From positions 29,885 to 63,535 of the forward strand of contig PLND01000031.1 in assembly GCA_003141675.1 (NCBI GenBank): a stretch of 33,651 nucleotides of DNA. Direction: 5' to 3'. A program made the position numbers and the translations under genes. Of the stretch, positions 1,834-18,446 are shown in pieces. The stretch's first letter is position 1. Every line of letters starts with the position of its first letter. This DNA is from Anaerolineae bacterium. Its GTDB lineage: Bacteria > Chloroflexota > Anaerolineae > Anaerolineales > RBG-16-64-43. The notes under the pieces were generated by a model. The model saw only the letters and a list, made by a program, of their open reading frames with translations, was not told the DNA's origin and did not search any database.

Positions 1834-3639
1834 ATGGATACCTCCCACATCCGAAATTTCTGCATCATTGCACACGTCGATCATGGCAAATCCACACTTG
1901 CGGACCGTCTTTTGCAACGCACGGGAACCATCTCCGACCGGCAGATGACCGACCAGGTGCTGGACACCATGGATCTTGAACGCGAACGGGGGGTGACGAT
2001 CAAGGCCTCGGCGGTGCGTATGAGTTACACCGCACGAAACGGATCCTCCTACGAATTGAATCTGATCGACACGCCCGGACACGTGGATTTTGCCTACGAG
2101 GTGAGCCGGGCATTGGCTGCGTGCGAAGGGGCGCTCCTGGTGGTGGACGCCACCCAGGGCATCGAGGCCCAGACGCTGGCCAATCTTTACCTGGCGATCG
2201 ATGCCGATTTGGAAGTGATCCCGGTGGTGAACAAGATCGATTTGCCCTCGGCACGGACCGAAGAAGTAAGCCGCGAGGTGGCTTCCCTGCTTGGGGTGGA
2301 CCTCTCCGCCGTTATTCCGATCTCGGCCAAGACCGGCCAAAACGTTGAAGCCGTCCTGGAAGCGGCGATATTACGCATTCGTCCTCCGACGGGATCGGCC
2401 GATGCGTCACCCCGCGCGCTCATCTTTGATTCCCATTACGACTCCTACCGCGGCGTAGTGGCGTACATGCGGGTCCGCGAAGGGATCCTTCGTTTCGGCG
2501 ACATGCTCAAGGTTATGTCGTCCGATGCCAAATTCGAGCCGATCGAAATCGGCATCTTCGCACCTGATATGCGCTCGACGGGCGAACTCTCCTCCGGCGA
2601 GGTGGGGTACATCGCCACGGGTCTCAAGAGCGTGCGCGAATGCCGCGTGGGCGATACGATCACTTCCGCGATGCGCCCGGCCGCCGAGCCGCTGCCCGGG
2701 TACAAGCAAATGAAACCGATGGTCTTTGCCGGATTCTATCCGGTGGAGGGCGAGGATTACGGCAACCTCAAGGAAGCGCTGGAAAAGCTGCAACTCAATG
2801 ACGCATCGCTGGTATATCAACCGGAAACCTCCCAGGCGTTGAACTTCGGATTTCGTTGCGGGTTCCTCGGCTTGTTTCACATGGACATTATCCAGGAGCG
2901 GCTGGAACGCGAATATGACCTGGATGTGATCGCCACCGCCCCTTCGGTGGAATACGAAGTGGCGATGAACGATGGGACCGTGCGCAAGGTGGATTCGCCC
3001 GCCACCCTCCCGCCCGAAGACGAGATCGCCGAGATCCGCGAGCCGTGGATGGAACTCCAGGTTTTCACACCGGACGAGTATTACGGGACGGTGGCGGACC
3101 TGGTGCGAGGCCGGCGCGGGGTCTTCCGCGAGCAGGCGTACACCTCGCCGGGCCGGGTGCAGCTGACCTTCGAACTGCCGCTGGCGGAACTGATTGTGGA
3201 TTTCTACGATAAACTGAAATCGCGCACGCGCGGGTACGCTTCGCTGGATTACCGCTTCCTGGATTATCGCCGCGAGGACCTGGTCCGCCTGGACATTTAT
3301 CTCAACGATGAGCCGGTGGATGCGCTCGCGACGATCGTCCACCGCGATACGGCCTACCACCGCGGGCAGGCGCTAGTCACTAAATTGAAGGATCTCATAC
3401 CGCGCCAGCAGTTCGTCGTCCCGGTGCAGGCGGTGGCGGAAGGGCGGGTCATTTCGAGGGCGAACGTCAGGGCGGTGCGCAAGGATGTGCTGGCCAAGTG
3501 CTACGGCGGCGACATCACCCGTAAACGCAAGCTTCTGGAAAAACAAAAGCGCGGGAAGCGGCGGCTGAAGATGATCGGAAGTGTGGAAGTTCCCCAGGAA
3601 GCGTTCCTGGCGGTGCTGGGAGCCGGAGGCGATGAATGA
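1834..3639 (+). CDS. lepA: Elongation factor 4 (LepA, ribosome back-translocating GTPase)
   Basis: A translational GTPase that acts on the ribosome under stress. All G motifs are visible near the N-terminus: G1 AHVDHGKST (13-21), the G2-region [10 protein letters not shown]3 DTPGH (79-83) and G4 NKID (133-136). Domain II and EF-G-like domains III and V follow (for example [23 protein letters not shown]), and then the LepA-specific C-terminus with [15 protein letters not shown] and a [10 protein letters not shown] ending. At 601 aa the length is exactly as expected. A GGGAG lies 11 bases before the ATG. The stop overlaps the start of the next gene (ATGA at 3636-3639), so the downstream membrane protein is probably translationally coupled. 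Confidence 0.97.
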
Positions 3640-4685
3640 CGGTTCCTGCCCGGAGGAACCGCGTCCTCCGTCTGCTCCCCGGGATTGTCTTGAGCGCGAT
3701 CGCCATCATCGCTTTGATCTGGCAGGTGAATTGGCGGCAGACGCTGCAGGCCTGGGGCCATGCCCAACTCTGGGTGATCGCGCCGGCATCTGCCTTGATC
3801 GTGGGCGCAATGCTCGCCCGGGCGATGGCCTGGCGCAGCCTGATGCGAAACGCCGTCGCGCCGCGGAAGGCTTTCTGGATCCTAGACATCAGTTACATGC
3901 TGAATTCGTTCCTGCCGTTCCGGCTCGGTGACGTGGCCCGGCCATATCTCGTCAGCCGCCGGGACATCGCAGACAAATCCATTGCCGATGGGGCAGGCGC
4001 GGGGACCGAACACCCGCCGATCGACATCGGGACGGCGTTTTCAGCAGTCGCGCTGGAACGAGTATTCGATCTGATTTTGTCCTGCCTGTGTATTCTTCTG
4101 GTCTTCCCCGTGCTCTCCGGCAAGGTGGGAAACGATTGGATCCTGATCTCCTCCTTCGGGCTGGCCGTGGCCGGATTTATTGCGCTGTTGCTGCTGGGCG
4201 CATGGAGCGCTCGAATAATGCATGCGGCGGAATGGGTGGCGGAAAAAGTTCACTTCCTCCGGCCCGCGCTGAAGCCGCTGGAGAATTTCCTGGACGGCTT
4301 GCGCCTGATACGCGATCTGCGTTATTCATTACCAGGGTTTCTGCTGATCGGCGTGGCCATGCTCCTGTGGGCGGCGGATTACTGGGTGGTACTGCGGGGA
4401 TTTGTCCCAACGGCGGGGGTCTCCTGGGCGCTGCTCGCGCTGGTCGGCGGGTTGATCGGGGTGGCGCTGCCGTCTTCGCCCGCCGCGCTGGGGATATTCG
4501 AAGTATCGCTGACGCTTGTGCTGACGGCGGGCGGAATGGATCGCAACATCGCCGTCGCCTACGCGCTCTCACTGCATATGCTTAATACACTTACGGTAAC
4601 CGTGCTTGGGCTGCTCGGATTGCTCGCCGAGCGCCAATCCCTGGGGTCGATCCTCTCCGTGGCGCAAGGCCCGGAGAATCCCTGA
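3636..4685 (+). CDS. UPF0104 / lysylphosphatidylglycerol-synthase-type membrane protein
   Basis: A 349-aa multi-pass membrane protein of the LPG_synthase_TM family (YbhN/AglD-like). Family signatures are [16 protein letters not shown] (from residue 90), ERVFDL (141-146) and [12 protein letters not shown] (about 279-290). About eight hydrophobic helices are apparent. The catalytic cytosolic domain of true MprF is missing, as in most members, so aminoacyl-lipid synthesis is not expected. Relatives are often encoded with glycosyltransferases and are proposed to help flip or modify lipid-linked sugars; that role is an inference here. It overlaps lepA by ATGA and is followed 19 bp later by a GT4 glycosyltransferase, which supports a cell-envelope role. 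Confidence 0.88.
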
Positions 4686-4704
4686 CCGGAAGGGTCTGGC
4701 TCGA

Positions 4705-5865
4705 ATGCGCGTTCTGATCGCACTGACATATTATCGGCCGCACGTATCGGGGCTTACCATTTACACCGAACGTCTGGGCCGCGCGCTGGTCCGGCGCGGG
4801 CACCGGGTGACCGTGCTCACCTCCCGCTTCGACCGGTCGCTGCCGGCGCAAGAGACCCTCGACGGTATGGATATTGTCCGGCCGTGGGTGGCGCTGCGCA
4901 TCAGCAAGGGTGTGATCATGCCGACCTTCGGGTACTGGGCGAACCGATTGGCGCTTTCCCACGACGTACTTTCCATCCACTTGCCGCAATTCGACGCGCC
5001 GGGCATCGCGCTGCGCGGGCGGCTGCTGGGTAAACCCGCCGTCCTAACTTATCACTCCGACCTCAGCCTTCCGCCGACGATGTTCAACCGGCTGGCCAAC
5101 CAGGTGGTCAACGTTTCCAACCATGCCGCGGGAAATTGGGCCGACGCCATCGTCGCCTATACCCGCGATTTCGCTGAACACTCCCCGTACCTCTCCCAAT
5201 ATCTTTCCAAGGTGCGCGTCATCCCGCCGCCGGTGGAGGTGGGCAAAGCCGATCCGGAAGATGTCCAGGCTTTCCGCCGCAAGCACAACCTCGAAGGCCA
5301 TAAGGTCATCGGCATGGCCGCCCGGCTGGCGACAGAAAAGGGGGTCGAGTACCTGCTGGAAGCAGCGCCAAGCATTCTGGAAAAGCATCCGGGCACGCGT
5401 TTCCTGTTCGCCGGCCAATATCAGAACGTGCTCGGCGAGGACACCTACGCGCGCAAGCTGGCGCCGCTCCTGACTGCGCTCGGCGACCGCTGGACGTTTT
5501 TGGGCGTGCTGCAGCCGGATGCCATGGCGGCATTCTTTAAATCCTGCGATCTCACCGTGCTCCCCAGCATCAACAGCACGGAAACGTTCGGGCTGGTACA
5601 GATTGAATCCATGATCTGCGGTACGCCCGTAGTCGCTTCCGGATTGCCCGGCGTACGCGAACCGGTGCGGATGACGGGAATGGGGAAGATCGTCCCGCTC
5701 AGGGATCCTTCCGCACTGGCGGAAGCCGTGCTGGAGGTGCTCGATAACCGTCCGAAATATATCCAGCCGGCTGGAAAAATCGCGGAGATGTTTTCTCCCG
5801 ACGCGACCGCGGCCCGGTATGAAGCGCTGTTCCAGGAAATTCTGGATAAGAAAAAGTCTGTGTAG
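4705..5865 (+). CDS. Glycosyltransferase family 4 protein
   Basis: A GT-B fold retaining glycosyltransferase, cytoplasmic or membrane-associated, probably adding a sugar from a nucleotide donor to a lipid or polysaccharide precursor. The N-terminal acceptor half starts MRVLIALTYYRPHVSG and includes GLTIYTERLGRALVRRGH (16-33). The C-terminal donor half has GMAARLATEKGVEYL and the diagnostic E-x7-E motif, E293-TFGLVQI-E301, followed by GTPVVASGLPGVRE. The start chosen at 4705 gives 386 aa and the canonical MRVL beginning; a longer in-frame start at 4606 would overlap the upstream gene by 80 bp and adds nothing recognisable. Sugar and acceptor cannot be predicted. The stop codon lies inside a hairpin. 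Confidence 0.92.
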   Translation: MRVLIALTYYRPHVSGLTIYTERLGRALVRRGHRVTVLTSRFDRSLPAQETLDGMDIVRPWVALRISKGVIMPTFGYWANRLALSHDVLSIHLPQFDAPGIALRGRLLGKPAVLTYHSDLSLPPTMFNRLANQVVNVSNHAAGNWADAIVAYTRDFAEHSPYLSQYLSKVRVIPPPVEVGKADPEDVQAFRRKHNLEGHKVIGMAARLATEKGVEYLLEAAPSILEKHPGTRFLFAGQYQNVLGEDTYARKLAPLLTALGDRWTFLGVLQPDAMAAFFKSCDLTVLPSINSTETFGLVQIESMICGTPVVASGLPGVREPVRMTGMGKIVPLRDPSALAEAVLEVLDNRPKYIQPAGKIAEMFSPDATAARYEALFQEILDKKKSV

Positions 5866-5910
5866 TCGCGATCGCCGATCGCGGCTACACTAATGGATCG
5901 CCGATCGCGG
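5861..5910. repeat. Hairpin overlapping the GT4 stop codon, with a 14-bp direct repeat
   Basis: TGTAGTCGCGATCG (5861-5874) pairs with CGATCGCGGCTACA (5876-5889) except for one position that can form a G-U pair. The TAG stop at 5863-5865 is inside the left arm. A 14-bp word, ATCGCCGATCGCGG, is repeated at 5871-5884 and 5897-5910. No T-run follows, so a classical terminator is unlikely; it may mark mRNA processing or be a REP-like element. Confidence 0.6.
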
Positions 5911-5969
5911 CGCTGGGACGATAGAACCCGCCGCGACTTCGAAAAGCTTTACCGGAGGAGTTCTTTGTA

Positions 5970-8333
5970 ATGTTCGAAGAAAAACTCAGCGTGTGGGATT
6001 GGTTGGTCCTCCGTTGGAACTCCCCGCGATGGAGGCGAAGGGTGCGCCTGCTTGCGGCTGGAGTGCTGGCCGCTCTCGGTGTGGTCTTTCTTGTGACCCT
6101 TCCGGGAAGCGGCGATTGGATCCCGATCTTTCTTCTCGCCGTGGTGTTCCTCATCCTCGGCTTGCGGATAGAAGTTCCGGAAGAGCCGCTGCCCCTGTCT
6201 CCCGAACTGCGGGAAGAGACGCAGACGGAAGAAATCACTCCTCGAGAGAAGCCTTCCGGCGTCGAAGCTGGTACGGCGCCGCCTGAGCCGCGGAAGAAAA
6301 TCGGCGTCTTGGCCATACTGCGTTTACCGCTTGCCGCATTCGCCGCATTCTGCGCGCAGTGGGTCAGCGAAGTGCACCCTCTGCCGATCGAATCGTCGCA
6401 GCGTTTGGGATGGATTCTGTTTGGGTTGGCGTTTCTCCTCGTGGTCTGGACTCTGCTCGCGGGCGATGTCGCCCTCGCTTTGGAATCCACGCGCGGAACG
6501 GGGAGCAAACCCGGATTCGATATCCGCCGTTTAGGCTTTTTCGTTTGCGCGATATTCTTCGGGCTGCTGGCCTATTGGGGTTTCTGGGGGGGGATGTTCC
6601 GGCTGTTGCCGTTAATCATGCTGGCGCTCGCGGTGGTTTATTGGTGGATCGCGTTGGCGGATTATTCGGGTGGGATCGGCGAGACGATCCTCAGCGCGCC
6701 GTCCGCGGCCGCTACCCGGATCCGCGCCGCGGTAAATTCGGTGCGGAAGGGCGTCACCATTACCGGTTCCTGGACCGTTCTGGTGGTGCTGTGCTTTGTC
6801 GGACTTGTCGTCTACCGGACGTACAACATCGCCGCCGTCCCTCCGGAAATGACCAGCGATCACATCGAAAAATTAATCAATGTGGCGGATATTCTCCAGG
6901 GCCGGACGTACATCTTCTTCGGCAACAACGGGGGGCGGGAAGCGCTCGAGTTCTACCTGATCGCGGCGGTTTCCCAAATCCTGGGAACCGGGATTACCTT
7001 CCTCTCGCTGAAGATCGTCTCCATTTCGATGGGCATTCTGATGTTGCCCTTCCTGTATCTTCTGGGGAAGGAGTTGGCCGACCGCCGGGTGGGACTAGTG
7101 GCGATGATTTTGGGCGGTGTGGGGTATTGGCCGGATATGATCAGCCGGATCGGCCTGCGATTCCCGCTGGCGATGCTGTTCTCCGCAGCGACGCTGTATT
7201 TCTTCTTCCGGGCGCTACGCCGCCGGCGTTGGAACGATTTCCTTTGGGCTGGTCTGATGCTGGGGATCGGCATGTACGGATATACGTCCATCCGGATCGT
7301 GCCGGTCGCGCTGGCGGTCGTCGCCGGCCTGTTCCTGATTCATCCATCGTCGAAGGGGTCGCGGGGATGGGCCGTGCTCGGATTTCTGGTGACGATGGCA
7401 ACCGTCGCGTTGCTATTTATCCCATTCCTGCGGTATGCGGTGGATTTCCCGGGCGATTTCTGGCTGCGGACGATCACCCGCATCGTCCCCTCGGAAGGAC
7501 CGCTGCAGAATCCGGTCGGCACTTTCTTCTCGAACGTTAAAAACGCGCTGCTGATGTTCAGCTGGAACGACGGTGTGGGATGGTTCAATTGCGTCCCCTT
7601 GCGTCCCGCGCTTGATATTGTCACCGGGGGGCTGTTCGCGCTGGGCGTTTTCGGATTGGCAGTTCACACCGTTAAAAAACGTTCGTGGGAAGCGGCGTCT
7701 TTGATCCTGCTGATCCCCGTTCTGCTCCTGCCGAGCATTATGGCGCTGGCGATCCCCAATGAGAATCCCCACCTGGCGCGCGCATCGGCCGCCATTCCGA
7801 TAACCTTTCTCCTTCCGGCGGTTGCGTTGGTCCTTCTCCTTGATTATCTGAAGGGTCTGGTCCCCGGCCGGAACGGCCGGTACCTCGCGGCGCTGGCTGC
7901 GGCGGCGCTGATATTTTTCGCGGCAAGGCAGGATTTCGACCTTACCCAGCGTCAATATCCAGCGGTATACCGTGAGAATTCCCAGAACGCCTCGGAGATC
8001 GGGACGTTCATGCTTAAATTTTATTCAACGATCGGCCGGCCGGAGGACGCGTATCTAATTCCCTATCCCTATTGGGTGGACGACCGGATCGTGAACGTCT
8101 ACGCTGGTTTTCCGATTTTGTCCCACCACGTCATCAACCCGGGAGACATCCCCGGCTTTGCCTTCAGCGGCCGCCCTACGGTCTTCCTGCTTCTGGCGCA
8201 GGATACGGATGATTTGCATGCCTTGCAGGAAAAGTTCCCGACCGGATATTATGGCACGGTGGTCTCCGCCTTTCCCGGTAAAGACTTTATGTTTTTCCTG
8301 GTTCCCGGAACGCCCATTGCGGCAAATCCATAG
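5970..8333 (+). CDS. GT-C (GT39/PMT-like) membrane glycosyltransferase
   Basis: A 787-aa multi-pass membrane protein resembling dolichyl/polyprenyl-phosphate-sugar glycosyltransferases, which transfer sugars on the outer side of the membrane. The first 260 residues hold several helices interrupted by a charged, Glu/Pro-rich loop (about 70-112) that is probably cytoplasmic. The GT-C core begins near residue 285: after helix LVVLCFVGLVVYRTYN comes the acidic loop PPEMTSDHIEK (candidate catalytic D297), then GREALEFYL, a run of helices with LLGKELADRR, and MYGYTSIRI. The last 130 residues form a soluble C-terminal domain. The start has a perfect GGAGGAG ribosome site ten bases upstream. It is the first of four large membrane proteins in the same direction, eight bases before the 1673-aa gene. 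Donor and acceptor are unknown. Confidence 0.8.
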   Translation: MFEEKLSVWDWLVLRWNSPRWRRRVRLLAAGVLAALGVVFLVTLPGSGDWIPIFLLAVVFLILGLRIEVPEEPLPLSPELREETQTEEITPREKPSGVEAGTAPPEPRKKIGVLAILRLPLAAFAAFCAQWVSEVHPLPIESSQRLGWILFGLAFLLVVWTLLAGDVALALESTRGTGSKPGFDIRRLGFFVCAIFFGLLAYWGFWGGMFRLLPLIMLALAVVYWWIALADYSGGIGETILSAPSAAATRIRAAVNSVRKGVTITGSWTVLVVLCFVGLVVYRTYNIAAVPPEMTSDHIEKLINVADILQGRTYIFFGNNGGREALEFYLIAAVSQILGTGITFLSLKIVSISMGILMLPFLYLLGKELADRRVGLVAMILGGVGYWPDMISRIGLRFPLAMLFSAATLYFFFRALRRRRWNDFLWAGLMLGIGMYGYTSIRIVPVALAVVAGLFLIHPSSKGSRGWAVLGFLVTMATVALLFIPFLRYAVDFPGDFWLRTITRIVPSEGPLQNPVGTFFSNVKNALLMFSWNDGVGWFNCVPLRPALDIVTGGLFALGVFGLAVHTVKKRSWEAASLILLIPVLLLPSIMALAIPNENPHLARASAAIPITFLLPAVALVLLLDYLKGLVPGRNGRYLAALAAAALIFFAARQDFDLTQRQYPAVYRENSQNASEIGTFMLKFYSTIGRPEDAYLIPYPYWVDDRIVNVYAGFPILSHHVINPGDIPGFAFSGRPTVFLLLAQDTDDLHALQEKFPTGYYGTVVSAFPGKDFMFFLVPGTPIAANP

Positions 8334-8341
8334 CACGGAGA

Positions 8342-11300
8342 ATGACGCGACCTATGCAAAATCCTATTCAGGATAATCCCCCGCTTTCCACACAATCCCA
8401 ATCTTTGCGCGGGAGAACCATCGGAGGATTCCGGGCGCTTGGAACGAATGTCCGCCGGCTTCCCTCTCTGGCATTCGAAATCTGCATGATCCTGCTGATC
8501 CTGATCGGAGTTATTTTCCGATTCTCGTGGACCAATTGGAGCGAGGGGATGGATATCCATCCCGACGAGTACGGCCTGACGTCCACGTTGACCAGTTTGT
8601 CTTTTCCCAAGTCGATCGCGGATTATTTCAACACCCGGATCTCGCCGATCAGCCCCTACCAAAAATACGACGTTGATGGCAACCAGACCGTACCGGGACC
8701 CGACAATTCCATGCGGTGGGGACAGTGGCCGCAGATCATTATCCGCGGCACAGCGGAAGCGGTGACCGGCATCGAGCAGGCGGTCGTTCCAGGGATCGAC
8801 AATCTGCAATCCAAAATATGTCCGCAGGGAAAGTCCGCTGGGGAGACGTCCCCCGCCTGCACGCCGATTCCGGCAATCAACTACGCGAGCTACAGTTGGC
8901 TGCGGCTGCTGGGGCGGACGCTTTCGGCACTGGCCGATACGCTCTCGCTACTGGTGCTCCTGGCCATCGGCTTGCGCCTGTTCTCCCGCAAGATCGCGCT
9001 CTTGGCGACGGCGCTCAGTGCGCTGGCGGTGATGCAGATCCAGCAATCGCACTTCATGACCGTCGATAATTTCGCCGTGCTGTTTTCGACCCTGTCCATC
9101 TATTGCGCCGTCCGCGCGGCGCAAAAAGGCGGCTGGAAATGGTACGCGCTGTTTGGAACATTTTACGGCATGGCGCTCGCGTCGAAACTCAACCTGGTCC
9201 TGCTGGGCCCGATGATCGCCGTGGCGCTTTGGATGAGCCACCGCGAGCGCTGGAATGACGCCACACTCTCCCCGCTTAAGCGATTCGGTCCGGCCGCCGG
9301 GCAAATGGCGCTGGCGGTTGCGATGACGCTGCTGGTATTCCGCGTCACGCAACCGATGACTTTCCGGGCGACCACCGGGGATACCGGCTTCTTTACGGTC
9401 AGCCTCAACCCGGATTGGGTACGCAGCATTAAGGTTTCCTTGGAGGAATCCAACGGTGTCTGCTGCGGTCCGCCCACCGAACAATGGACGAACCGTCCGG
9501 CGATCATCTTCCCCTTCACTAACATGGTGCTGTGGGGCATGGGCTTGCCGCTCGGGTTGATGGCTTTCGCGGCTCTCTTCTGGGCGGGATACCGCATCTA
9601 CCAGGGGCGGGATTGGCAATCTCATCTGCTGCCGGTCGTCTATACAGCCGTGACCTTCCTGTTTCTGGCCACCCGCTGGGTGAAATCGGTGCGCTATTTC
9701 CTGGTTGTGTATCCCTTCTTTTGCCTGCTGGCGGCCTGGGCACTGGTCGAACTCTGGAACCTTGCCAAACCCCGCGGGGGCTGGCGCAAGGCGCTCTCCG
9801 GCGCGCTGATCGGAGTGGTCGTGTTGGGCACGCTTGCGTGGGCTTGGGGGTTCACCAACATCTACCGCAACGACAATACACGTTTCCAAGCTTCCCGCTG
9901 GATATACCAGAACGTGCCCGCGCCGTTCACACTCAACCTGCTTCTGCCGTCCGGCGGAACGGATAACGAACCGATACCGTTCGATGCCAACCAGCAAATC
10001 GGCGCCGACCCGGCGGTGATCCAATTCACCTCCCGCGAAAGCGGGACGGTGAACGGCATCTCACTGGGGTTTGCCCTTGATCTCTCCGGGGCGACCGGTT
10101 CGGTGATGCACGTCGCGATCTACACCGAGCCGCGCGGGGACGCCCCGCTCGCGCAGACCGATCTGGTCATCCCGGGCGCGGGGAACGATCCGCGCGGTGT
10201 GAGCGTTTCGGGACCGATCGAGCCTGTGGCGCTCGAGCAAAATGGGCATTACCGGCTGGAGGTGAGCGCCGCGAGCGGGGGGCCGTTCACCGTGCAAGGG
10301 GCGACGATCGCCAACGAGTCGTGGGACGAGGGCATGCCGGAGCGGATCGACGGCCGCGACGGATTTGGCGGCCTCTTCACAGGCATCACTATGGAAGTCC
10401 GTTGGCCGGATTTGGAGAACAAGCGCGAGATGTTCATCGACGTGCTCTCCAAGGCGGATTACGTGATCATGCCGAGCCAACGGGCGGTCTGGAGCGCAAG
10501 CCGCCTCCCGGCCGCGTATCCGATGACGCTTGAATATTACCGGGCGCTGTTCGACGGCCGGCTGGGATATGACCTGGTGGCGGAGTTCCAAACGCCGATC
10601 GTCATCGGCCCGCTGCAGTTTTCGGATTTGGCCGGCAGCGTGGCTTGGGGCCATGCGCCCACGCTGCCCCTTTTCAACAACAACCCCCTCGCAGCCGAGG
10701 AGGCTTTCAGCGTCTACGACCATGCGCCGGTGTGGATCTTCAAGAAGCGGGCGGACTTCCGGATTGATCAGGTGAAGGCCGTCCTGAATGCAATCGACCT
10801 TTCCACCGTCGTTCAACAGGATTCCCGCCAGGCAACGAACTTTCCGACTGCGCTGATGCTCCCTGCGGACCAATTGCAACAGCAACAGGCGGGCGGAACC
10901 TGGTCGGATATGTTTTCCTACGACTGGTTGTGGAACAAATATCCCGGCATCGCTGCCGTCCTGTGGTGGCTTTGGGCGATGCTGACCGGATGGGCCGCCC
11001 TGCCGCTGGTGGGGAAAATTTTCCGCGGCTTGCCGGACGAGGGATATTCGATTTCCAAGATCGCCGGCTGGCTGCTGGTAGCCTGGGCATCGTGGATTCT
11101 CGGGAGCTTTAAGGTCCCCTTCGTGTGGACGACGATTGCGCTGGTCTGGTTGGCGCTGGTTGTCGTCGGTGGAATCCTGCTCTGGCGGGATCGCAAGCGC
11201 TGGAAGGAAAGCTTCCATTATCTCTGGAAGACCTGGCTGGCGGCCGAAATTGTCTTTACCGTCTTTTTCCTGTTGGACCTGCTCATCCGCTACGGCAACA

Positions 11301-13363
11301 GTGACCTGTGGCACCCGTCCAAAGGCGGCGAGAAACCGATGGATTTCTCCTACCTGAACGCGGTGATCAAGAGCACTACCTTCCCGCCCTACGACCCGTG
11401 GTTTTCGGGCGGGTATCTCAATTATTACTACTTCGGATTTGTCCTCGTGGCCATTCCGATCAAATTGCTCGGGACCGTGCCGACGATCGGTTACAACCTG
11501 GCGCTTCCGCTGCTGTTTGGAACGCTCGGTGTGACCACCTACGGCGTGGCCTGGAATCTGGCTGAAAGTTTGCGCCGGAAAGGATCGACCCGCGTTGTTC
11601 CGTGGATCGCCGGACTGGCAGCCGCGCTTATGCTTTTGGTCTTCGGCAATTTGGGAGAAGTGGCGCTGGTGTGGAACGGTCTTGTGACCATGAGCGCGCT
11701 CCCGTATCCGCACGGCTTATTATTCCACTTGGGGGATATCCCGCATCTGTTCGATGGGGCGTTGCGGTACGTGCTCGGGCAGGCGAACTGGCCGTTCGGG
11801 ATCGATGCCTGGTATTGGAACGCGTCGAGGTCCATCCCTGTACCGATCGGTCCGGGCGGTGCACAAACGGAGGTTGGGCCGATCACGGAATTCCCATTCT
11901 TCTCGTTCCTCTACGCCGACCTGCATGCGCACTTGATGGCGATGCCGCTGATGATCCTTTCCCTGGCGGGATCGGCCGCGATGGTGATCGCGCCGGAACG
12001 GCTGCGCTCGTGGAAGACGGCGCTGCCGTTGGTGGCCTTCACCGCCCTGGCGGTGGGTTCGCTGTGGGCGACCAACTCCTGGAACTATCCGATCTCGCTC
12101 GGGATCGCCCTGATCGGTCTGGCGTTAGCCGGATGGCGAATGCTTGCGCTGAGCACCGGATTGAAGGATTGGCGCGGATGGATTCACCTGGCAATCCTGG
12201 CAGGGGTTCTCATCGGGCTGTCGGTCTGGCTGTTCCAGCCATACTACCAATGGTACGGCGCCGGATACAACGCTATTGATCCATGGAAGGGATCCCGCAC
12301 TCCGCTGGATGCCTATTTCATAATCCACGGATTGTTCCTGTTCATCCTGATCACCTACCTTGTCTGGCAGACACGCGACTGGCTGATCTCCGTTCCGTTC
12401 GATGCGATGAAGAAAAATTCCGGAATCGGAACGATCCTCCTGACCTCGGTGGCACTGCTCGCGGCGGGGCTCGTGATCCTGGGTGCGCTGGGATATCCTG
12501 TGCTGGTTCTGGCCATTCCTCTGATCGTCTGGGCGGTTATTCTGGGATTGCGGAAGGGATTAGCCGACGAACACCGCGTGGTGCTTGGATTGACGGCGGT
12601 TAGCCTGGCCGTCACTTGTGTGGTGGAACTGATCGTCCTGCGCGGGGATATCGACCGGATGAACACGGTGTTCAAATTCTACATTCAAGCTTGGAACTTC
12701 TTCGCCATTGCGGCCGGAGTCGCCTTGGGCTGGCTGGTGGGAGAACTGGGAGGATGGAAACCGATCCTGCGCAAAATATGGATCGGCGCGCTGGGGTTGC
12801 TCGTAGCCGGCTGCCTTCTCTATACCTTGTGCGCCACGTATGCCAAGATGGTCGACCGGATGAGCGCCGCTGCTCCACGGACTCTCGACGGAATGACGTA
12901 TATGTATTCTTCCTCCTATTTTGACAATGCCGATTTGAATCTCCAGGAGGATTACCTTGCCATCCGCTGGATGCAGGAAAACGTCAAAGGGTCGCCGGTG
13001 ATCGTGGAGGCCAATACGGTCGAATATCAATGGGGTTCTCGGTTCACGATTTACACAGGATTGCCCGGTGTGGTGGGATGGAACTGGCACCAACGCCAGC
13101 AGCGCGGCGTGGTGACCGACCAATGGGTATGGGATCGGGTTAACGCCATCAAGGATTTTTATGACACCCTGGACATGGACCAGACGCGGGCGTTCCTGCG
13201 GAAATACAACGTTCACTACATCGTCGTCGGACAGCTGGAGCGGGCCTTCTACACGCCGGAAGGTCTGGATAAGTTCGAAACCATGGTGCGCGATGGCGAA
13301 TTGAAGAAGGTGTTCACTATCGGGCAGACGACGATCTATGAGGTTGTGGATTTGGAATCCTAA
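8342..13363 (+). CDS. Giant fusion: GT39-like module + DUF2298 (Chlor_Arch_YYY) module
   Basis: This 1673-aa protein joins two membrane modules. Module 1 (about 45-540) is GT39-like: loop MDIHPDEYG with D75/E76 after the first helix, then QQSHFMTVDNFAVLFSTLS and further helices. A mostly polar, beta-looking stretch (about 540-690) follows, ending in VLSKADYVIMPSQRAVWS. Module 2 (about 870-1673) is DUF2298: GEKPMDFSYLNAV (near 997), PPYDPWFSGGYLNYYYFGF with the YYY triad at 1028-1030, YADLHAHLMAMP (D1193, H1195, H1197), DRMNTVFKFYIQAW (from 1438) and a soluble tail with TGLPGVVGWNWHQRQQRG. It presumably acts in extracytoplasmic glycosylation. The ATG at 8342 follows GGAG closely; an ATG at 8354 is possible. 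No frameshift or break is visible between modules. Confidence 0.85.
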   Translation: MTRPMQNPIQDNPPLSTQSQSLRGRTIGGFRALGTNVRRLPSLAFEICMILLILIGVIFRFSWTNWSEGMDIHPDEYGLTSTLTSLSFPKSIADYFNTRISPISPYQKYDVDGNQTVPGPDNSMRWGQWPQIIIRGTAEAVTGIEQAVVPGIDNLQSKICPQGKSAGETSPACTPIPAINYASYSWLRLLGRTLSALADTLSLLVLLAIGLRLFSRKIALLATALSALAVMQIQQSHFMTVDNFAVLFSTLSIYCAVRAAQKGGWKWYALFGTFYGMALASKLNLVLLGPMIAVALWMSHRERWNDATLSPLKRFGPAAGQMALAVAMTLLVFRVTQPMTFRATTGDTGFFTVSLNPDWVRSIKVSLEESNGVCCGPPTEQWTNRPAIIFPFTNMVLWGMGLPLGLMAFAALFWAGYRIYQGRDWQSHLLPVVYTAVTFLFLATRWVKSVRYFLVVYPFFCLLAAWALVELWNLAKPRGGWRKALSGALIGVVVLGTLAWAWGFTNIYRNDNTRFQASRWIYQNVPAPFTLNLLLPSGGTDNEPIPFDANQQIGADPAVIQFTSRESGTVNGISLGFALDLSGATGSVMHVAIYTEPRGDAPLAQTDLVIPGAGNDPRGVSVSGPIEPVALEQNGHYRLEVSAASGGPFTVQGATIANESWDEGMPERIDGRDGFGGLFTGITMEVRWPDLENKREMFIDVLSKADYVIMPSQRAVWSASRLPAAYPMTLEYYRALFDGRLGYDLVAEFQTPIVIGPLQFSDLAGSVAWGHAPTLPLFNNNPLAAEEAFSVYDHAPVWIFKKRADFRIDQVKAVLNAIDLSTVVQQDSRQATNFPTALMLPADQLQQQQAGGTWSDMFSYDWLWNKYPGIAAVLWWLWAMLTGWAALPLVGKIFRGLPDEGYSISKIAGWLLVAWASWILGSFKVPFVWTTIALVWLALVVVGGILLWRDRKRWKESFHYLWKTWLAAEIVFTVFFLLDLLIRYGNSDLWHPSKGGEKPMDFSYLNAVIKSTTFPPYDPWFSGGYLNYYYFGFVLVAIPIKLLGTVPTIGYNLALPLLFGTLGVTTYGVAWNLAESLRRKGSTRVVPWIAGLAAALMLLVFGNLGEVALVWNGLVTMSALPYPHGLLFHLGDIPHLFDGALRYVLGQANWPFGIDAWYWNASRSIPVPIGPGGAQTEVGPITEFPFFSFLYADLHAHLMAMPLMILSLAGSAAMVIAPERLRSWKTALPLVAFTALAVGSLWATNSWNYPISLGIALIGLALAGWRMLALSTGLKDWRGWIHLAILAGVLIGLSVWLFQPYYQWYGAGYNAIDPWKGSRTPLDAYFIIHGLFLFILITYLVWQTRDWLISVPFDAMKKNSGIGTILLTSVALLAAGLVILGALGYPVLVLAIPLIVWAVILGLRKGLADEHRVVLGLTAVSLAVTCVVELIVLRGDIDRMNTVFKFYIQAWNFFAIAAGVALGWLVGELGGWKPILRKIWIGALGLLVAGCLLYTLCATYAKMVDRMSAAAPRTLDGMTYMYSSSYFDNADLNLQEDYLAIRWMQENVKGSPVIVEANTVEYQWGSRFTIYTGLPGVVGWNWHQRQQRGVVTDQWVWDRVNAIKDFYDTLDMDQTRAFLRKYNVHYIVVGQLERAFYTPEGLDKFETMVRDGELKKVFTIGQTTIYEVVDLES

Positions 13364-13378
13364 CCCCTCTCCCTCTTT

Positions 13379-13406
13379 CCCCCTCTCCCCAGAAGGGGAG
13401 AGGGGG
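13379..13406. repeat. 12-bp perfect C/G hairpin between the two DUF2298 genes
   Basis: CCCCCTCTCCCC (13379-13390), loop AGAA, GGGGAGAGGGGG (13395-13406). It occupies most of the 84-bp gap between the 1673-aa and 854-aa genes. There is no T-run, so termination is doubtful; an mRNA-stability or segmental-expression role is possible. It resembles the G/C-asymmetric repeats elsewhere in the window. Confidence 0.75.
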
Positions 13407-13447
13407 CAGGGGTGAGGGAAGAGGATATTTAAGGAGTTAGTGCCGTC

Positions 13448-16012
13448 ATGACTTTCTGGGAAGGCGCGTGGGCGTTTGGGCGATGGTGGGGCTGCACGCT
13501 GATCATCGCTCTGGCTGTCTGGCCCATCACATTCCAATGCCTCAAGCGGTTGCCCGACCGCGGATTTGCATTCGCGCGCATGTTCGGCCTGATCGGCGTG
13601 GGGTACTTCTTCTGGCTGGGCTGCTGGCTTCATCTTTGGCCGAACATCCCCGGTGCCGTCTGGCTATGCGCGGCCCTTTTACTGGCCGTTGGTACGCTGC
13701 TGGCGCAGCGCCGCGGCGAAAAACCGTGGGCGATGCTCCGCGAACACTGGCGCGAGGCGCTCTTTACGGAGGGCCTGTTCCTGGTGCTGTTCGTGGTCTG
13801 GACGTGGGTCCGGGCCAACAACCCGCAGGGGGATTGGGCGGAAAAACCGATGGAAATCGCCTTCATCAATTCCATCATGCGTTCTCCCTACTTCCCGCCC
13901 AACGATCCCTGGCTGTCAGGCTATGCGATTTCTTACTATCACTTCGGCTACATCATGACCGGAATGCTGGCCAAGATCTCGGCCTTGACCGGCAACATCG
14001 CCTTCAACCTGGCGGTAGCCGGGTCGTTTGCGATGGCCGGCGCCGGGTCCTGGGGGATTCTGCGCAACGTATTGCTCCTTCGCGCCCGCGCGAGAAAGGC
14101 CGCTGAGCCTGAATTACCGGATGGCGTCCCGGACTCTCCATGGAGGAAAGCCGCCCCAACCGCCGCGCCCCGCTATTTGATCCTCGCGCTCCTGGCGCCT
14201 TTCTGCCTTTTGCTCCTGGGTAATTTCGAGGGGTTTGTGGATATTTTGTATTATCACGGCGCGGGCTGGGAGAACGGGCAAGGGTTGATCTGGAAATGGC
14301 TGGATTTAAACTGGCGATTGGATCCGCCGATCGTTCAGACGAATTTGGTCCCCAATGCCTATTTGTGGTGGTGGCAGGATTCGCGGGTGATCAACGACCG
14401 GATGTTGACAGGAGATCATGTCGAAGTGATCGACGAGTTCCCGGCATTCACTTACATCATGGGCGATCTGCATCCTCACGTCCTGGCCTTCCCGTTTCTG
14501 ATGGCGGTTCTCGCGATCGTGCTGGAAATCCTCTTGCGGGGAAGCGAGGGCTGGCCGGAAAGTCGATTGGAGCGGTGGCTGTTTTTGATTTTCGTCGCGA
14601 TCTCGATCGGCAGCCTGGCATTCCTCAACACGTGGGATGCGCTGATTTTCGGGATGGCGGCTATAGCCGGTTGGGTCGGCTGGCGAGCGAGCCGCAAGGA
14701 ATTGTCCTTCGGAAGGTTTACGGGATGGAAAGCCTATCTCGCGCGCTGGGCGGCGATCGGATTCCTGACCCTGGTTTTTTGCATTCCCTTCCTGATCGGG
14801 TTCTCTTCGCAGGCCGGCGGCATCCTTCCCAACGTGCTCTTCCCGACCAAGGGAAATCAATTTTTCATCATGTTCGGCACGCTGCTCATTCCGCTCACGA
14901 TCTGGATCTTGCTCGAGCTGACCGAGAAAAGGGGCGGGCTGGATGGGAAGCGCGCGCTGACAATTGTCGGAATCGGCCTGGCAATTCTCCTCGCCGGTTC
15001 GTTGATCCTGGCGTTTGTGCTGGCGCTGATTCCAAACGTCCTCAACAGCCTCGGCGGTGTGCTGGGCGGATTTTCGTCGTTGCAGGCGATGTCCATCCGT
15101 TTGACCCAACGGATAACCGATCCCCTGGCCACCCTCTGGCCCGCCTTCTTGATTTTCGCAAGTTTGGCGGTCGTGCTGGGATGGATCCGGAAACGCAACG
15201 CGGACCATTCCGAGGAGCCGGCCGGAGAATCTCCCCGTGACGCGATCCGGTTGATTGACGCGTATGTATGGATCCTGATTTTCTGGGGAGCGCTCCTGGT
15301 GTTGTTCCCCGAATATTTCTACCTGCGGGATTTGTTCAGCGACCGGATGAACACCGTCTTCAAATTTTATTTCCAAGGCTGGGCATTCTGGAGCCTCGCC
15401 GTTGCCTTTGCCGTGATCCGAATGTTCGAAATCCTTACGGATAAATTGGAACTCAACGGCCGGCGTTGGTCGCTTGCCGGATTGGGGGCGCTGTTGACCG
15501 CCGTCTGTTTTTGCCTTGGAGCGGTCTTTTTGCCGATGGCCGTGTGGAGCAAGACCGGCGGCTTCAAGCCAGCCGGCGGACCGACGCTGGACGCCTCCGC
15601 CTATCTGAAGCAGAATTCACCGGATGACGCCGCCGCGATCGCCTGGATCAATGCCAATATTCACGACCTGGGTCCGATCGCGGAAGCCGTCGGCGGGTCG
15701 TATTCGGAATATGCCAGGATTGCGACCTTTACGGGTCTGTCGAATGTCATCGGCTGGCCATGGCACGAAACGCAGTGGCGCGGCGCATCCCAGGATTTCC
15801 AAAACCGGGAAAATGATATCCGGGAACTTTACACAACCACCGACTGGACCCGCGCGCTGGAAATTCTCGATCAATACGGAATCCGGTATGTATATTTTGG
15901 ACCGCTTGAAGCGAGCACCTACAAGACGCGCGGCCTGGATAAATTCCGCGCCCATATGAATATCATCTATCAGACCGATCAGGTGACCATCTTCGAAAGG
16001 GACGTGCCATGA
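13448..16012 (+). CDS. DUF2298 (Chlor_Arch_YYY) membrane protein
   Basis: An 854-aa multi-pass membrane protein that is a stand-alone paralogue of the second half of the preceding gene. Shared landmarks are EKPMEIAFINS (near 132), FPPNDPWLSGYAISYYHFGY with Y163-Y164-H165 where the fusion has YYY, GDLHPHVLAFP (D340, H342, H344), DRMNTVFKFYFQGW (from 632) and a soluble tail with ATFTGLSNVIGWPWHETQWRG and RGLDKFRAH. The family is known from Chloroflexota and archaea, often beside GT39-like proteins. Glycosyltransferase activity is likely by fold and context but is not proven here. AAGGAG lies 13 bases before the ATG. The stop overlaps the next start (ATGA), so the next protein is probably coupled. 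Confidence 0.88.
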   Translation: MTFWEGAWAFGRWWGCTLIIALAVWPITFQCLKRLPDRGFAFARMFGLIGVGYFFWLGCWLHLWPNIPGAVWLCAALLLAVGTLLAQRRGEKPWAMLREHWREALFTEGLFLVLFVVWTWVRANNPQGDWAEKPMEIAFINSIMRSPYFPPNDPWLSGYAISYYHFGYIMTGMLAKISALTGNIAFNLAVAGSFAMAGAGSWGILRNVLLLRARARKAAEPELPDGVPDSPWRKAAPTAAPRYLILALLAPFCLLLLGNFEGFVDILYYHGAGWENGQGLIWKWLDLNWRLDPPIVQTNLVPNAYLWWWQDSRVINDRMLTGDHVEVIDEFPAFTYIMGDLHPHVLAFPFLMAVLAIVLEILLRGSEGWPESRLERWLFLIFVAISIGSLAFLNTWDALIFGMAAIAGWVGWRASRKELSFGRFTGWKAYLARWAAIGFLTLVFCIPFLIGFSSQAGGILPNVLFPTKGNQFFIMFGTLLIPLTIWILLELTEKRGGLDGKRALTIVGIGLAILLAGSLILAFVLALIPNVLNSLGGVLGGFSSLQAMSIRLTQRITDPLATLWPAFLIFASLAVVLGWIRKRNADHSEEPAGESPRDAIRLIDAYVWILIFWGALLVLFPEYFYLRDLFSDRMNTVFKFYFQGWAFWSLAVAFAVIRMFEILTDKLELNGRRWSLAGLGALLTAVCFCLGAVFLPMAVWSKTGGFKPAGGPTLDASAYLKQNSPDDAAAIAWINANIHDLGPIAEAVGGSYSEYARIATFTGLSNVIGWPWHETQWRGASQDFQNRENDIRELYTTTDWTRALEILDQYGIRYVYFGPLEASTYKTRGLDKFRAHMNIIYQTDQVTIFERDVP

Positions 16013-17763
16013 AGTTGCGCGATTCTATCGGCCGCTGGCTGGAGGAATATGATCTCCTCCTCTATCTAATTTTATTTCTGGCGGCGGTACTGCTCAGGCT
16101 TTCGGCGCTGGCCGCTCCGCCGCTGAATGAAAACGAGGCGCTCCAGGCGTGGGGCGCCCTGCATCTGTTGCGTGGGCAGCCCGCCGCCGGGGGCAGCGCA
16201 CTGTTCGCCTCACTGACGGCGGGGATTTTATTTATTGCGGGACCGTCGCACTGGGCGCCGCGGATCGTTCCGGCGCTGGCCGGTTCGCTCATGGTTTTTC
16301 TGCCGCTCCTGTTCCGATCGAAACGTGGCAAACTCGAATGCGCGCTGGCGGCGATCCTGATCGCGCTTTCCTCTTCGCTGTGGATCGCCTCCACGTTGGC
16401 GGGCGGCGCGGCGGTGGGGCTGCTTGCGGCGGCCGCCTGCATTTTCATTCTGCGCGGCGGACGATCCAACCCGTTGTCCGGCGGCATCCTTCTGGGGCTG
16501 GCCGTGGCGGCTGGAACGGTCGGTTGGAGCGGTCTGGCCATCGCGCTGATCGTCCTTGCTACAGATTGGGCATGGCGCCGGATGCGCATGCCGGATACAG
16601 AGGAGGGAGCGTGCGATCCATTAAAAGAATCGCTGACGCTTGTCTTCCGCTCTCCCGCCGGCCTGGGGGGTCTGGCCCTCGGGATCGCGGCGGGCAGCAC
16701 AGGAATGTTTTTCTTCCCGCACGGTGCAGCCGTCCTGGCATCGGGATGGACGGATTGGTTTGCGGCTTTCTTTTCCGGTTGGCCCAAGCTCGGCGAATTC
16801 ATACTGCTGCTGGTTGCTTACGAGCCGATGGCGCTGGTTTTCGGCATCGCCGGGCTCCTTCTTCTGCGACGGACCCGATTTTCCACCGAAGACCGCTTCC
16901 TGGCAATGTTCGCCGGGGTTGCGTCGATATGGGTGCTGATCCGGCCAGCGGCGTTTCCGGCTGACGCGCTTTGGGTGATCCTGCCGCTGCTGCTCCTGGG
17001 CGCCCGCGCGCTGCGCGCCGTGCTGGAATCTCAGGCGGTGGAGGAACGGCCGCGGTTTATCGCGATCCAGGTTTGCTTGATCGGTCTCCTGATCGCATTT
17101 TCCGCTTTGAGTTTGACCGCGTATACGGCGGCCGGCGAGTGGTGGCAGCCGCTCCTAGCTGCGGCGGGATTCCTTGCGACGTTCCTGGTCGGTCCGATCC
17201 TTTCCGAGAACTGGCGGCAGGCTGTCATCCCATCGCTCGTGGGATTGGCCTGCGCCTGGTTCCTGGTCTTCTTCCTCTTCCAGGCGGGGACGGGCTGGAA
17301 TGCCACCCACGGACGCCACGAATCGGCTAATGAACTCTGGTGGTCCGATACCGTTCCGATCGACATCCTCCGGTTGCACCAAACCATGGATCAGATCTCG
17401 GAGTGGCAAACCGGAGAGCCCGGAGAGTTTGCTGCGATTATCGAGTGGCCGGAGGATTCCGCGCTGGGTTGGGAATTGCTCGCCTACCATGCGGCGGAAT
17501 ACACTGCGGCGCCTGACCTGCTGGCAACTCCCGCGATGGTCGTCGCTCCGCGTGTTCTGCAGGGGGATAGCGTGGCTACACTCCATTTGACCGCCGCCTA
17601 TCGCGGGCAGGGATTCGGCAGCATCGAGCAGCGCGGCTGGTCCGGGCTGCCGCCGGACCTCATTGGCTGGTTGCTGTACCGCCAGGGACCGGTGCAGAGG
17701 GGGCAGATGATCCTCTGGACACGGGTGGATATTTTAACTCCCGACGCGGGAAGCGGAACATGA
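16009..17763 (+). CDS. GT39/TIGR03663-like membrane glycosyltransferase
   Basis: A 584-aa multi-pass membrane protein with a GT-C-like layout. A first helix (about 17-36) is followed by the acidic loop LNENEALQAWGAL (E41 and E43 in place of the usual Asp-Glu), then many Ala/Leu-rich helices up to about residue 430 and a soluble C-terminal domain of about 150 residues. It resembles the glycosyltransferase family that typically accompanies DUF2298 proteins, but conserved motifs are weak, so the assignment rests on topology, the acidic loop and neighbours. It overlaps both the upstream DUF2298 gene (ATGA at 16009-16012) and downstream cmk (ATGA at 17760-17763). Replacement of the usual Asp may mean altered or lost catalysis. 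Confidence 0.7.
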   Translation: MKLRDSIGRWLEEYDLLLYLILFLAAVLLRLSALAAPPLNENEALQAWGALHLLRGQPAAGGSALFASLTAGILFIAGPSHWAPRIVPALAGSLMVFLPLLFRSKRGKLECALAAILIALSSSLWIASTLAGGAAVGLLAAAACIFILRGGRSNPLSGGILLGLAVAAGTVGWSGLAIALIVLATDWAWRRMRMPDTEEGACDPLKESLTLVFRSPAGLGGLALGIAAGSTGMFFFPHGAAVLASGWTDWFAAFFSGWPKLGEFILLLVAYEPMALVFGIAGLLLLRRTRFSTEDRFLAMFAGVASIWVLIRPAAFPADALWVILPLLLLGARALRAVLESQAVEERPRFIAIQVCLIGLLIAFSALSLTAYTAAGEWWQPLLAAAGFLATFLVGPILSENWRQAVIPSLVGLACAWFLVFFLFQAGTGWNATHGRHESANELWWSDTVPIDILRLHQTMDQISEWQTGEPGEFAAIIEWPEDSALGWELLAYHAAEYTAAPDLLATPAMVVAPRVLQGDSVATLHLTAAYRGQGFGSIEQRGWSGLPPDLIGWLLYRQGPVQRGQMILWTRVDILTPDAGSGT

Positions 17764-18446
17764 AACCGGGTGCTGCTGGGATCATCGCGCTGGACGGACC
17801 GGCGGCTTCCGGGAAGACGACCATCGGCCGCATGCTGGCCGCGCGTCTGGCGTATCTTTTTTTCGACACCGGAGTGATGTACCGGACGGTCGCGCTCGCG
17901 GCGTATCAAAGCGGGGTGGATCCGACCGATGAAGCGGCGATTTCTGCGCTGGCGGAAAAAATCGTGATCGACGTGCTGCCGCCCGCGGATGGAGATGGCC
18001 GGACCAGCACGGTCCTGCTCGATGGGGAGGACGTCTCCTGGGCGATCCGCGAGCCGGTGGTCGATGCGACTGTCTCGCAGATATCGGCCTACCGCCGGGT
18101 GCGCGCGGCGATGGTGGCCCAGCAGCGGAAGATCGGCCTGCGCGGGAAGGTCGTGATGGTGGGGCGCGACATCGGCACGGTAGTCCTGCCGGAGGCGGAT
18201 CTCAAAGTATATCTGGATGCGTCGCTAGCGGAGCGTTCCCGGCGGCGGTTCGCCGAGCTGCAATCGCGCGGGGGGAAGCAGACGCTGCAGGAAGTGCAAA
18301 CGGGCTTGGCTCGCAGGGATGAGGTGGATTCCGGACGCGACCTCTCGCCGCTGCACCCGGCCGAGGATGCAGTGATTATTGATACTACCGCGATGACGCC
18401 GGAGAAAATTCTAAAAAAAATCGAATCGTTGTTTGAAAATAATTGA
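17760..18446 (+). CDS. cmk: Cytidylate kinase
   Basis: Phosphorylates CMP and dCMP to the diphosphates using ATP in the cytoplasm; part of pyrimidine salvage and CTP supply. The P-loop is GPAASGKTT (13-21), followed by DTGVMYRTVALAAYQ, the central GRDIGTVVLPEADLKVYLDAS and the lid-region Arg cluster (ERSRRRF). The length, 228 aa, is normal. Its ATG overlaps the stop of the preceding membrane protein, making it the last gene of the glycosylation cluster. The linkage may be incidental or may support nucleotide supply for lipid and sugar carriers. No terminator is evident after it. Confidence 0.95.
   Translation: MKPGAAGIIALDGPAASGKTTIGRMLAARLAYLFFDTGVMYRTVALAAYQSGVDPTDEAAISALAEKIVIDVLPPADGDGRTSTVLLDGEDVSWAIREPVVDATVSQISAYRRVRAAMVAQQRKIGLRGKVVMVGRDIGTVVLPEADLKVYLDASLAERSRRRFAELQSRGGKQTLQEVQTGLARRDEVDSGRDLSPLHPAEDAVIIDTTAMTPEKILKKIESLFENN

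Follow-up and report, generated by a model that had tools for sequence, protein, structure and literature searches.

Two membrane modules that exist elsewhere as separate proteins share one open reading frame in a member of the Anaerolineae, and the question raised by this locus is whether the joined gene is real and, if so, whether its two halves act together. The frame lies in a stretch of 33,651 nucleotides (the window), which corresponds to positions 29,885 to 63,535 of the forward strand of contig PLND01000031.1 of Anaerolineae bacterium (GCA_003141675.1). According to the open reading frame listing and its translation, it encodes 1673 amino acids without an internal stop (Table 1).

Architecture and distribution of the fused gene

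The encoded protein consists of a PMT-like module (aa 1–868, referred to as module 1) joined to a DUF2298/Chlor_Arch_YYY module (aa 869–1673). Pfam matches to PMT_2 and PMT were confined to aa 180–311 and scored 53.6 and 42.9 bits, respectively (cut-offs 26.1 and 22.7 bits). The second half is a member of DUF2298/TIGR03662 by full-length profile scores above the curated cut-offs: DUF2298 matched aa 912–1453 (Pfam; 366 bits, cut-off 27.8 bits; profile positions 1–487 of 488) and TIGR03662 Chlor_Arch_YYY matched aa 871–1668 (NCBIfam; 532 bits, cut-off 300; positions 4–726 of 727). The description of the first half as GT39-like in the earlier note holds at the Pfam level, where PMT and PMT_2 exceed their cut-offs, but the analysis supports a GT-C fold and not GT39 activity. 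The module is therefore named PMT-like rather than GT39, a name that would imply a Dol-P-Man donor and a Ser/Thr protein acceptor. A GGAG motif lies one base upstream of the ATG at 8342, so that the ATG at 8354 is a possible start of the gene, and the conserved part of the protein begins near aa 41 in an alignment of 91 fusions.

A search for the same architecture in other genomes found it throughout the class and, beyond it, in further classes of Chloroflexota. Matches were obtained in 384 of 396 genomes of the class, most of the best ones in open frames of approximately 1,450–1,880 codons that span both modules, and a second collection comprised 80 loci from named assemblies, mostly metagenome-assembled genomes of Anaerolineales/Anaerolineae. 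Among the fetched loci, the gene is present in 111, and every one of these has both modules in one open reading frame (99 of these frames being complete; two of the loci, L001 and L003, are the source genome itself). This contradicts the alternative that relatives always have two separate genes with a frame break at this position, and it confirms the claim of the earlier note that two membrane modules are fused in a frame free of stops and frameshifts. The source genome is an assembly of 105 contigs, and an assembly artefact or a lost stop codon might accordingly have joined two genes in it. However, the same frame recurs in more than 100 independent loci at 31–68% identity, and the junction residues G852, T853, F858, and W875 are conserved in at least 95% of the 91 fusions, so that misassembly and a hidden frameshift are excluded and the probability of the artefact explanation is negligible.

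Several lineages depart from the two-module arrangement. In family f76 (L173, L174), module 1 (602–619 aa) and DUF2298 (793–857 aa) are encoded by separate adjoining genes, and in L175 the two genes are approximately 6.7 kb apart, in agreement with the earlier statement that elsewhere the modules are separate proteins. Family f71 and the Anaerolineae family f39 contain proteins of 2436–2766 aa with the order module 1, DUF2298, DUF2298 (L152, L153, L158). These chains (L152 5099–12592, L153 8179–16476, and L158 6482–13789) each have three predicted GT-C cores. A stand-alone module 1 with the beta domain (797 aa, approximately 50% identical to the window protein) is encoded at L145 5826–8216 (G202:C3); the fusion is present in that genome as well.

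Among 201 genomes of the phylum, strong matches to both modules were found in 124, to DUF2298 only in 9, to module 1 only in 1, and to neither in 67 (Fisher p = 4e-42 for co-occurrence, with phylogeny ignored); some of the nine DUF2298-only genomes may reflect assembly gaps. That the modules almost always occur together supports their participation in one pathway. Two genomes, G446 and G538, contain no strong module 1 anywhere and thus represent a natural DUF2298-only system; in their loci L161 and L162, genes for DUF2298, Agl23-like, and UPF0104 proteins are found together. A phylogenetic tree of 57 DUF2298 domains placed all 25 fused first domains on one side of a branch with an SH-aLRT support of 99, and 28 of 29 stand-alone domains beyond a second branch. 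This split indicates that the two DUF2298 genes per operon are old paralogues, one of which has long been fused. The unfused DUF2298 genes of family f76 (L173/L174) grouped with the stand-alone branch, and the f76 pair is therefore not a simple split of the fusion.

The fused form is thus old and widespread in the Chloroflexota and no rarity of the source genome. The architecture is ordinary for this phylum and already implied by TIGR03662 and Pfam matches in databases. The family text of TIGR03662 presumably already refers to long proteins of Chloroflexi that carry an additional N-terminal region, and Pfam may already class DUF2298 in its GT-C clan, in which case the fold part of the present results would not be new.

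Table 1. Features of the fused gene and its neighborhood; coordinates refer to the window.
Feature	Coordinates	Strand	Details
UPF0104/LPG_synthase_TM, predicted lipid flippase	3636..4685	+	PF03706 1.9e-36
GT4 cytoplasmic glycosyltransferase	4705..5865	+	PF00534 2.8e-30; start = internal ATG, MRVLIALTYY
Separate PMT_2 GT-C-like protein, 787 aa	5970..8333	+	PF13231 3e-12
Fusion gene, GT-C (PMT-like) module plus DUF2298/Chlor_Arch_YYY module	8342..13363	+	1673 aa
Module 1 membrane part, aa 41–525, predicted GT-C fold	8462..9916	+	AF2 model and PDB structural matches
H73-P74-D75-E76, tip of juxtamembrane helix 1 (helix 74–84), candidate catalytic acid	8558..8569	+	Conservation and model
R451-x6-P458, GT-C Rx6P motif ahead of the last two membrane helices	9692..9715	+	Conservation and model
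Inserted beta-sandwich, aa 526–660, dispensable and duplicable	9917..10321	+	Model strands 529–659; weak DUF4082-like signal
Module 1 extracytoplasmic C-terminal domain, aa 661–868	10322..10945	+	AF2 model; conserved D662/P666/Y792/D793
Three extra membrane helices, aa 868–949, from module 1 outer domain to DUF2298 GT-C core	10943..11188	+	
DUF2298 membrane part, aa 869–1500, predicted GT-C fold	10946..12841	+	AF2 model and PDB structural matches
E997-K-P-M-D1001, tip of juxtamembrane helix 1 (helix 998–1010), candidate catalytic acid	11330..11344	+	
R1439-M-N-T-V-F-K1445 before the last two membrane helices, candidate lipid-phosphate binding	12656..12676	+	
DUF2298 extracytoplasmic C-terminal domain, aa 1501–1673	12842..13360	+	Resembles AglB C-terminal globular domain
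Second, unfused DUF2298 protein, 854 aa, ancient paralogue	13448..16012	+	PF10060 9e-98; separate tree branch
Agl23-like membrane protein, 584 aa, overlaps preceding stop	16009..17763	+	TIGR03663 1.5e-9, below cut-off

Predicted folds, topology, and candidate active sites

The structures of both modules were predicted with AlphaFold2 using 69 sequences. The model of module 1 (aa 1–868; pLDDT 90.8, pTM 0.90) matched PMT4, AglB, ALG12, STT3, Emb, and ArnT in the PDB (foldseek; E down to 2.7e-7), and all matches with E < 1e-3 were GT-C proteins; at the sequence level, profile A1 showed a weak match to fungal Pmt4 (E = 0.013). The model of the DUF2298 half (aa 854–1673; pLDDT 94.4, pTM 0.94) had seven PDB matches below 1e-3, all of them to GT-C proteins (DPY19, AftA, AglB, ArnT; best E = 1.5e-7), with DPY19 and AftA scoring above AglB. 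Matches of this model to MFS, TRAP, and pyrophosphatase structures were found only at E > 0.04 and probabilities of 0.25 or less, and a viral structure library searched as contrast gave no match. The global TM-scores of both modules to GT-C structures are 0.3–0.56 at approximately 10–14% identity, which is modest because both proteins carry large extra parts, and the claim made here is one of a shared core and not of close similarity. The C-terminal domain of the DUF2298 half aligned with the C-terminal globular domain of AglB (3vu0) at a TMt of 0.50 and a probability of 1.00, but at E ~0.02.

Searches of PDB sequences with the protein (P0001) and profile A2 retrieved no credible relative of the DUF2298 half, and its profile was not convincingly related in sequence to either module 1 or any PDB chain. 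Compared as profiles, the two modules matched only over their 15 overlap residues, so that an origin of one by duplication of the other is not detectable at the sequence level. A match to a D_TM/Agl23-like profile (probability 66.7) was set aside because it is out of register with the GT-C core. DUF2298, which occurs in Chloroflexota and some archaea, was also detected in the control genomes of Haloferax volcanii and Methanosarcina acetivorans. The literature searched for DUF2298, Chlor_Arch_YYY, and COG5427 contained nothing on function and no biochemical data.

In GT-CA enzymes the tip of juxtamembrane helix 1 bears an essential aspartate (PMC12041299; PMC12041525), and the Rx6P motif that precedes the last membrane helices of STT3 and DPY19 contains a conserved arginine (PMC6801728). 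Module 1 has the predicted GT-C core, the acid at the juxtamembrane tip, and the Rx6P motif. The H73-P74-D75-E76 motif is conserved in at least 95% of the 91 fusions, and all 13 copies compared across the phylum, fused and unfused alike, share D75, E76, and R451. The DUF2298 half is likewise predicted to contain a GT-C membrane core with an acid at the corresponding tip, which is Glu rather than Asp. This residue, E997, directly precedes helix 998–1010 in the model, with D1001 in the first turn, and the position is acidic in all 57 DUF2298 domains, paralogues included. R1439 and K/R1445 are present in 57/57 domains as well, ahead of the last modeled helices (1440–1471 and 1474–1504), and no recognizable Rx6P occurs in this half. 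The motif that gives Chlor_Arch_YYY its name is found as Y1028-Y1029-Y1030 followed by x-G1032 (Y1029 in 57/57), and further residues to be mentioned are D1018, E1183, and D1193-x-H1195-x-H1197. The position of the conserved acids and arginines in the models suggests that they have a catalytic role.

According to the model, the DUF2298 half begins with extra helices at aa 868–893, 902–922, and 929–949 (model positions 15–40, 49–69, and 76–96, offset by 853), after which a long helix (951–985) leads into the loop with E997. The loop charges fit the orientations out-in, in-out, and out-in for the three helices, and the positively charged loops KIFRGLPDEGYSISK and RDRKRWKESFHYLWK would be cytoplasmic in this reading. 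Three extra helices would thus allow two outward-facing enzymes to be joined via a linker on the outside.

The polar, beta-like domain that had been proposed to lie between the modules is instead inserted inside the outer C-terminal domain of module 1 (strands 529–659), which resumes at 661 and runs to approximately 860. The insert is absent in L154–L158 and L160, where about 10 residues link the membrane part to the remainder of the outer domain, and is present as two tandem copies in family f3 (L146 6251–11548, L147 9323–14746, and L148 6193–11559). Its copies are 15–47% identical to that of the window, with no invariant column. Pfam DUF4082 was detected weakly in 8 of 46 copies (best 4.6e-4), no sequence match was found in the PDB, and a resemblance to jelly rolls (phage baseplate, 4-1BBL; foldseek, E ~0.005–0.015) is a hint at the fold only. 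We read the insert as an optional binding or spacing domain that is not catalytic.

Operon context and proposed function

Upstream of the fusion and the adjoining PMT_2 gene are lepA and the genes of the UPF0104 flippase and the GT4 enzyme; downstream, the second DUF2298 gene is followed by those of the Agl23-like protein, cmk, and PlsC. The order PMT_2, fusion, second DUF2298 was found in 47 of the 80 named loci, most of the others ending at a contig or locus edge. Profile comparisons related the PMT_2 neighbor (probability 98.6) and the Agl23-like neighbor (97.1) to module 1, and the operon thus holds several GT-C-type proteins. The source genome has two DUF2298 genes, namely the fusion and its neighbor. 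It also encodes 18 PMT_2 matches, 3 UPF0104 proteins, and 1 GtrA-like protein, so that the fusion operon is not the sole such system in this organism. In much of the class the glycan operon is flanked by the housekeeping genes lepA and cmk (1834–18446 in the window), an oddly stable neighborhood for a surface-glycan locus; cmk and the Agl23-like gene overlap by 4 bases. Between the fusion and its DUF2298 neighbor lies a near-perfect palindrome (13362–13432) with a 12-bp GC-rich stem, CCCCCTCTCCCC-AGAA-GGGGAGAGGGGG, and flanking pairs (single-strand fold z = -3.95). Four CCCTCTCC...GGAGAGGG palindromes are present in the genome (0 matches for a reversed-pattern control), and the element may act as a terminator/attenuator or represent a small repeat element.

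The fusion is probably a tandem extracytoplasmic membrane glycosyltransferase, with two GT-C modules encoded in a conserved cell-surface glycan operon. We infer its enzyme activity, donor, acceptor, and shared substrate as follows. The GT4 enzyme and the UPF0104 flippase would supply a lipid-linked sugar, and its users on the outside would be the PMT_2 protein, the fusion, the second DUF2298 protein, and the Agl23-like protein. Both GT-C modules would face the outside of the cytoplasmic membrane, where a polyprenyl-phosphate (or diphosphate) carrier in the outer leaflet would serve each half as sugar donor. The acceptor would be activated by the acid at the tip of juxtamembrane helix 1 (D75/E76 in module 1, E997 in DUF2298) and the lipid phosphate held by the arginine before the last two helices (R451, R1439). 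The outer C-terminal domain of module 1 would reach the DUF2298 core via the three extra helices with correct topology, and a single growing surface glycan or glycoprotein is probably the target of both active sites. A shared substrate, with the modules catalyzing consecutive steps or sharing an acceptor, is plausible. The earlier note had regarded the fusion as strong evidence for the same substrate; co-occurrence supports one pathway, but this wording is overstated, given that DUF2298 occurs without its partner in G446 and G538 and that the unfused DUF2298 of L173/L174 belongs to the other branch. The more specific proposal, that DUF2298 is an unrecognized GT-C family and that the fusion has two active sites which attach two sugars in succession to one outer-leaflet acceptor without releasing it, is put forward tentatively as a possibility.

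Other functions are conceivable for the pair. Only one half might act as a GT-C enzyme, the other being a non-catalytic derivative of the GT-C fold whose role, like that of PIGU in the GPI transamidase, is to bind the acceptor or lipid carrier. PIGU adopts a GT-C fold but lacks transferase activity (PMC12041525), so that the fold alone is no proof of catalysis, and the DUF2298 half is very divergent and devoid of a recognizable Rx6P. A dead half would, however, be expected to lose its acids and arginines, whereas near-invariant tip acids and arginines at the lipid-phosphate position are retained in both halves throughout the phylum, and a PIGU-like partner is therefore rather unlikely. It also appears clearly improbable that DUF2298 is a transferase of the STT3/AglB kind, which would pass a whole lipid-linked glycan to protein while module 1 adds or edits a sugar. 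AglB is among the structural matches, the C-terminal domain is similar to the AglB globular domain, and the EL1 motif FPPYDPWF of the DUF2298 half presumably recalls DPWFN of STT3; yet no WWDYG is present in the fusion sequence, the monosaccharide-donor enzymes DPY19 and AftA match better, and nothing demonstrates a protein acceptor. Finally, a large multi-helix protein in an operon with a predicted flippase could be a polyprenyl-linked glycan transporter or polymerase-like partner, its fusion coupling flipping or polymerization to PMT-like transfer, but this is highly improbable since all significant structural matches are GT-C enzymes and transporters and pumps score as poorly as stated above.

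The tandem glycosyltransferase remains the favored interpretation, and the fusion suggests that the DUF2298 family consists of sugar-transfer enzymes. Two results could be of use to specialists, namely the prediction that DUF2298 is a GT-C family and the chain of predicted GT-C cores, two in the fusion and three in some lineages; the combination of predicted GT-C fold, PMT-like fusion, and conserved glycan operon gives DUF2298 a specific and testable putative function in sugar transfer on the extracytoplasmic side. Little is known about the surface glycans and glycoproteins of Chloroflexota, and the locus offers a concrete starting place for their study. To our knowledge, no characterized enzyme combines two GT-C cores in a single chain, and none turned up in a literature search.

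Comparison with known systems

The C-terminal half of the fusion is a full-length member of TIGR03662/PF10060, and what differs is that the N-terminal region is here identified as a complete, predicted GT-C module of the PMT-like type and that a GT-C fold is also predicted for DUF2298 itself. Module 1 resembles GT39/PMT and PMT_2 (ArnT-like) proteins in its Pfam scores over cut-off, its predicted GT-C fold, the DE pair at the tip, and Rx6P. It differs from GT39/PMT by an outer C-terminal domain of its own with an optional beta insertion, and has H237-x4-D242 instead of the Rx4D reported for POMTs. The best structural matches of the DUF2298 half are DPY19 and AftA, and in DPY19, too, the first helix is followed by a glutamate motif (PMC6801728). 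This half is distinguished from both by an identity of approximately 10–12%, the three extra N-terminal helices, and the motifs YYY, DLHAH, and RMNTxFK. With AglB/STT3 the fusion shares a predicted GT-C core and a C-terminal globular domain of similar fold, but it lacks WWDYG and contains two predicted GT-C cores per chain. A precedent for the flippase and GT4 neighbors is gpgSDF, in which the flippase itself is only predicted (PMC12713373). UPF0104 flippases together with PMT/STT3-like proteins are also known from archaeal glycosylation neighborhoods (PMC5898192), which resemble the present locus in combining a flippase, a glycosyltransferase, and GT-C neighbors, whereas the locus described here is bacterial, contains the fused gene and two DUF2298 paralogues, and is flanked by lepA and cmk.
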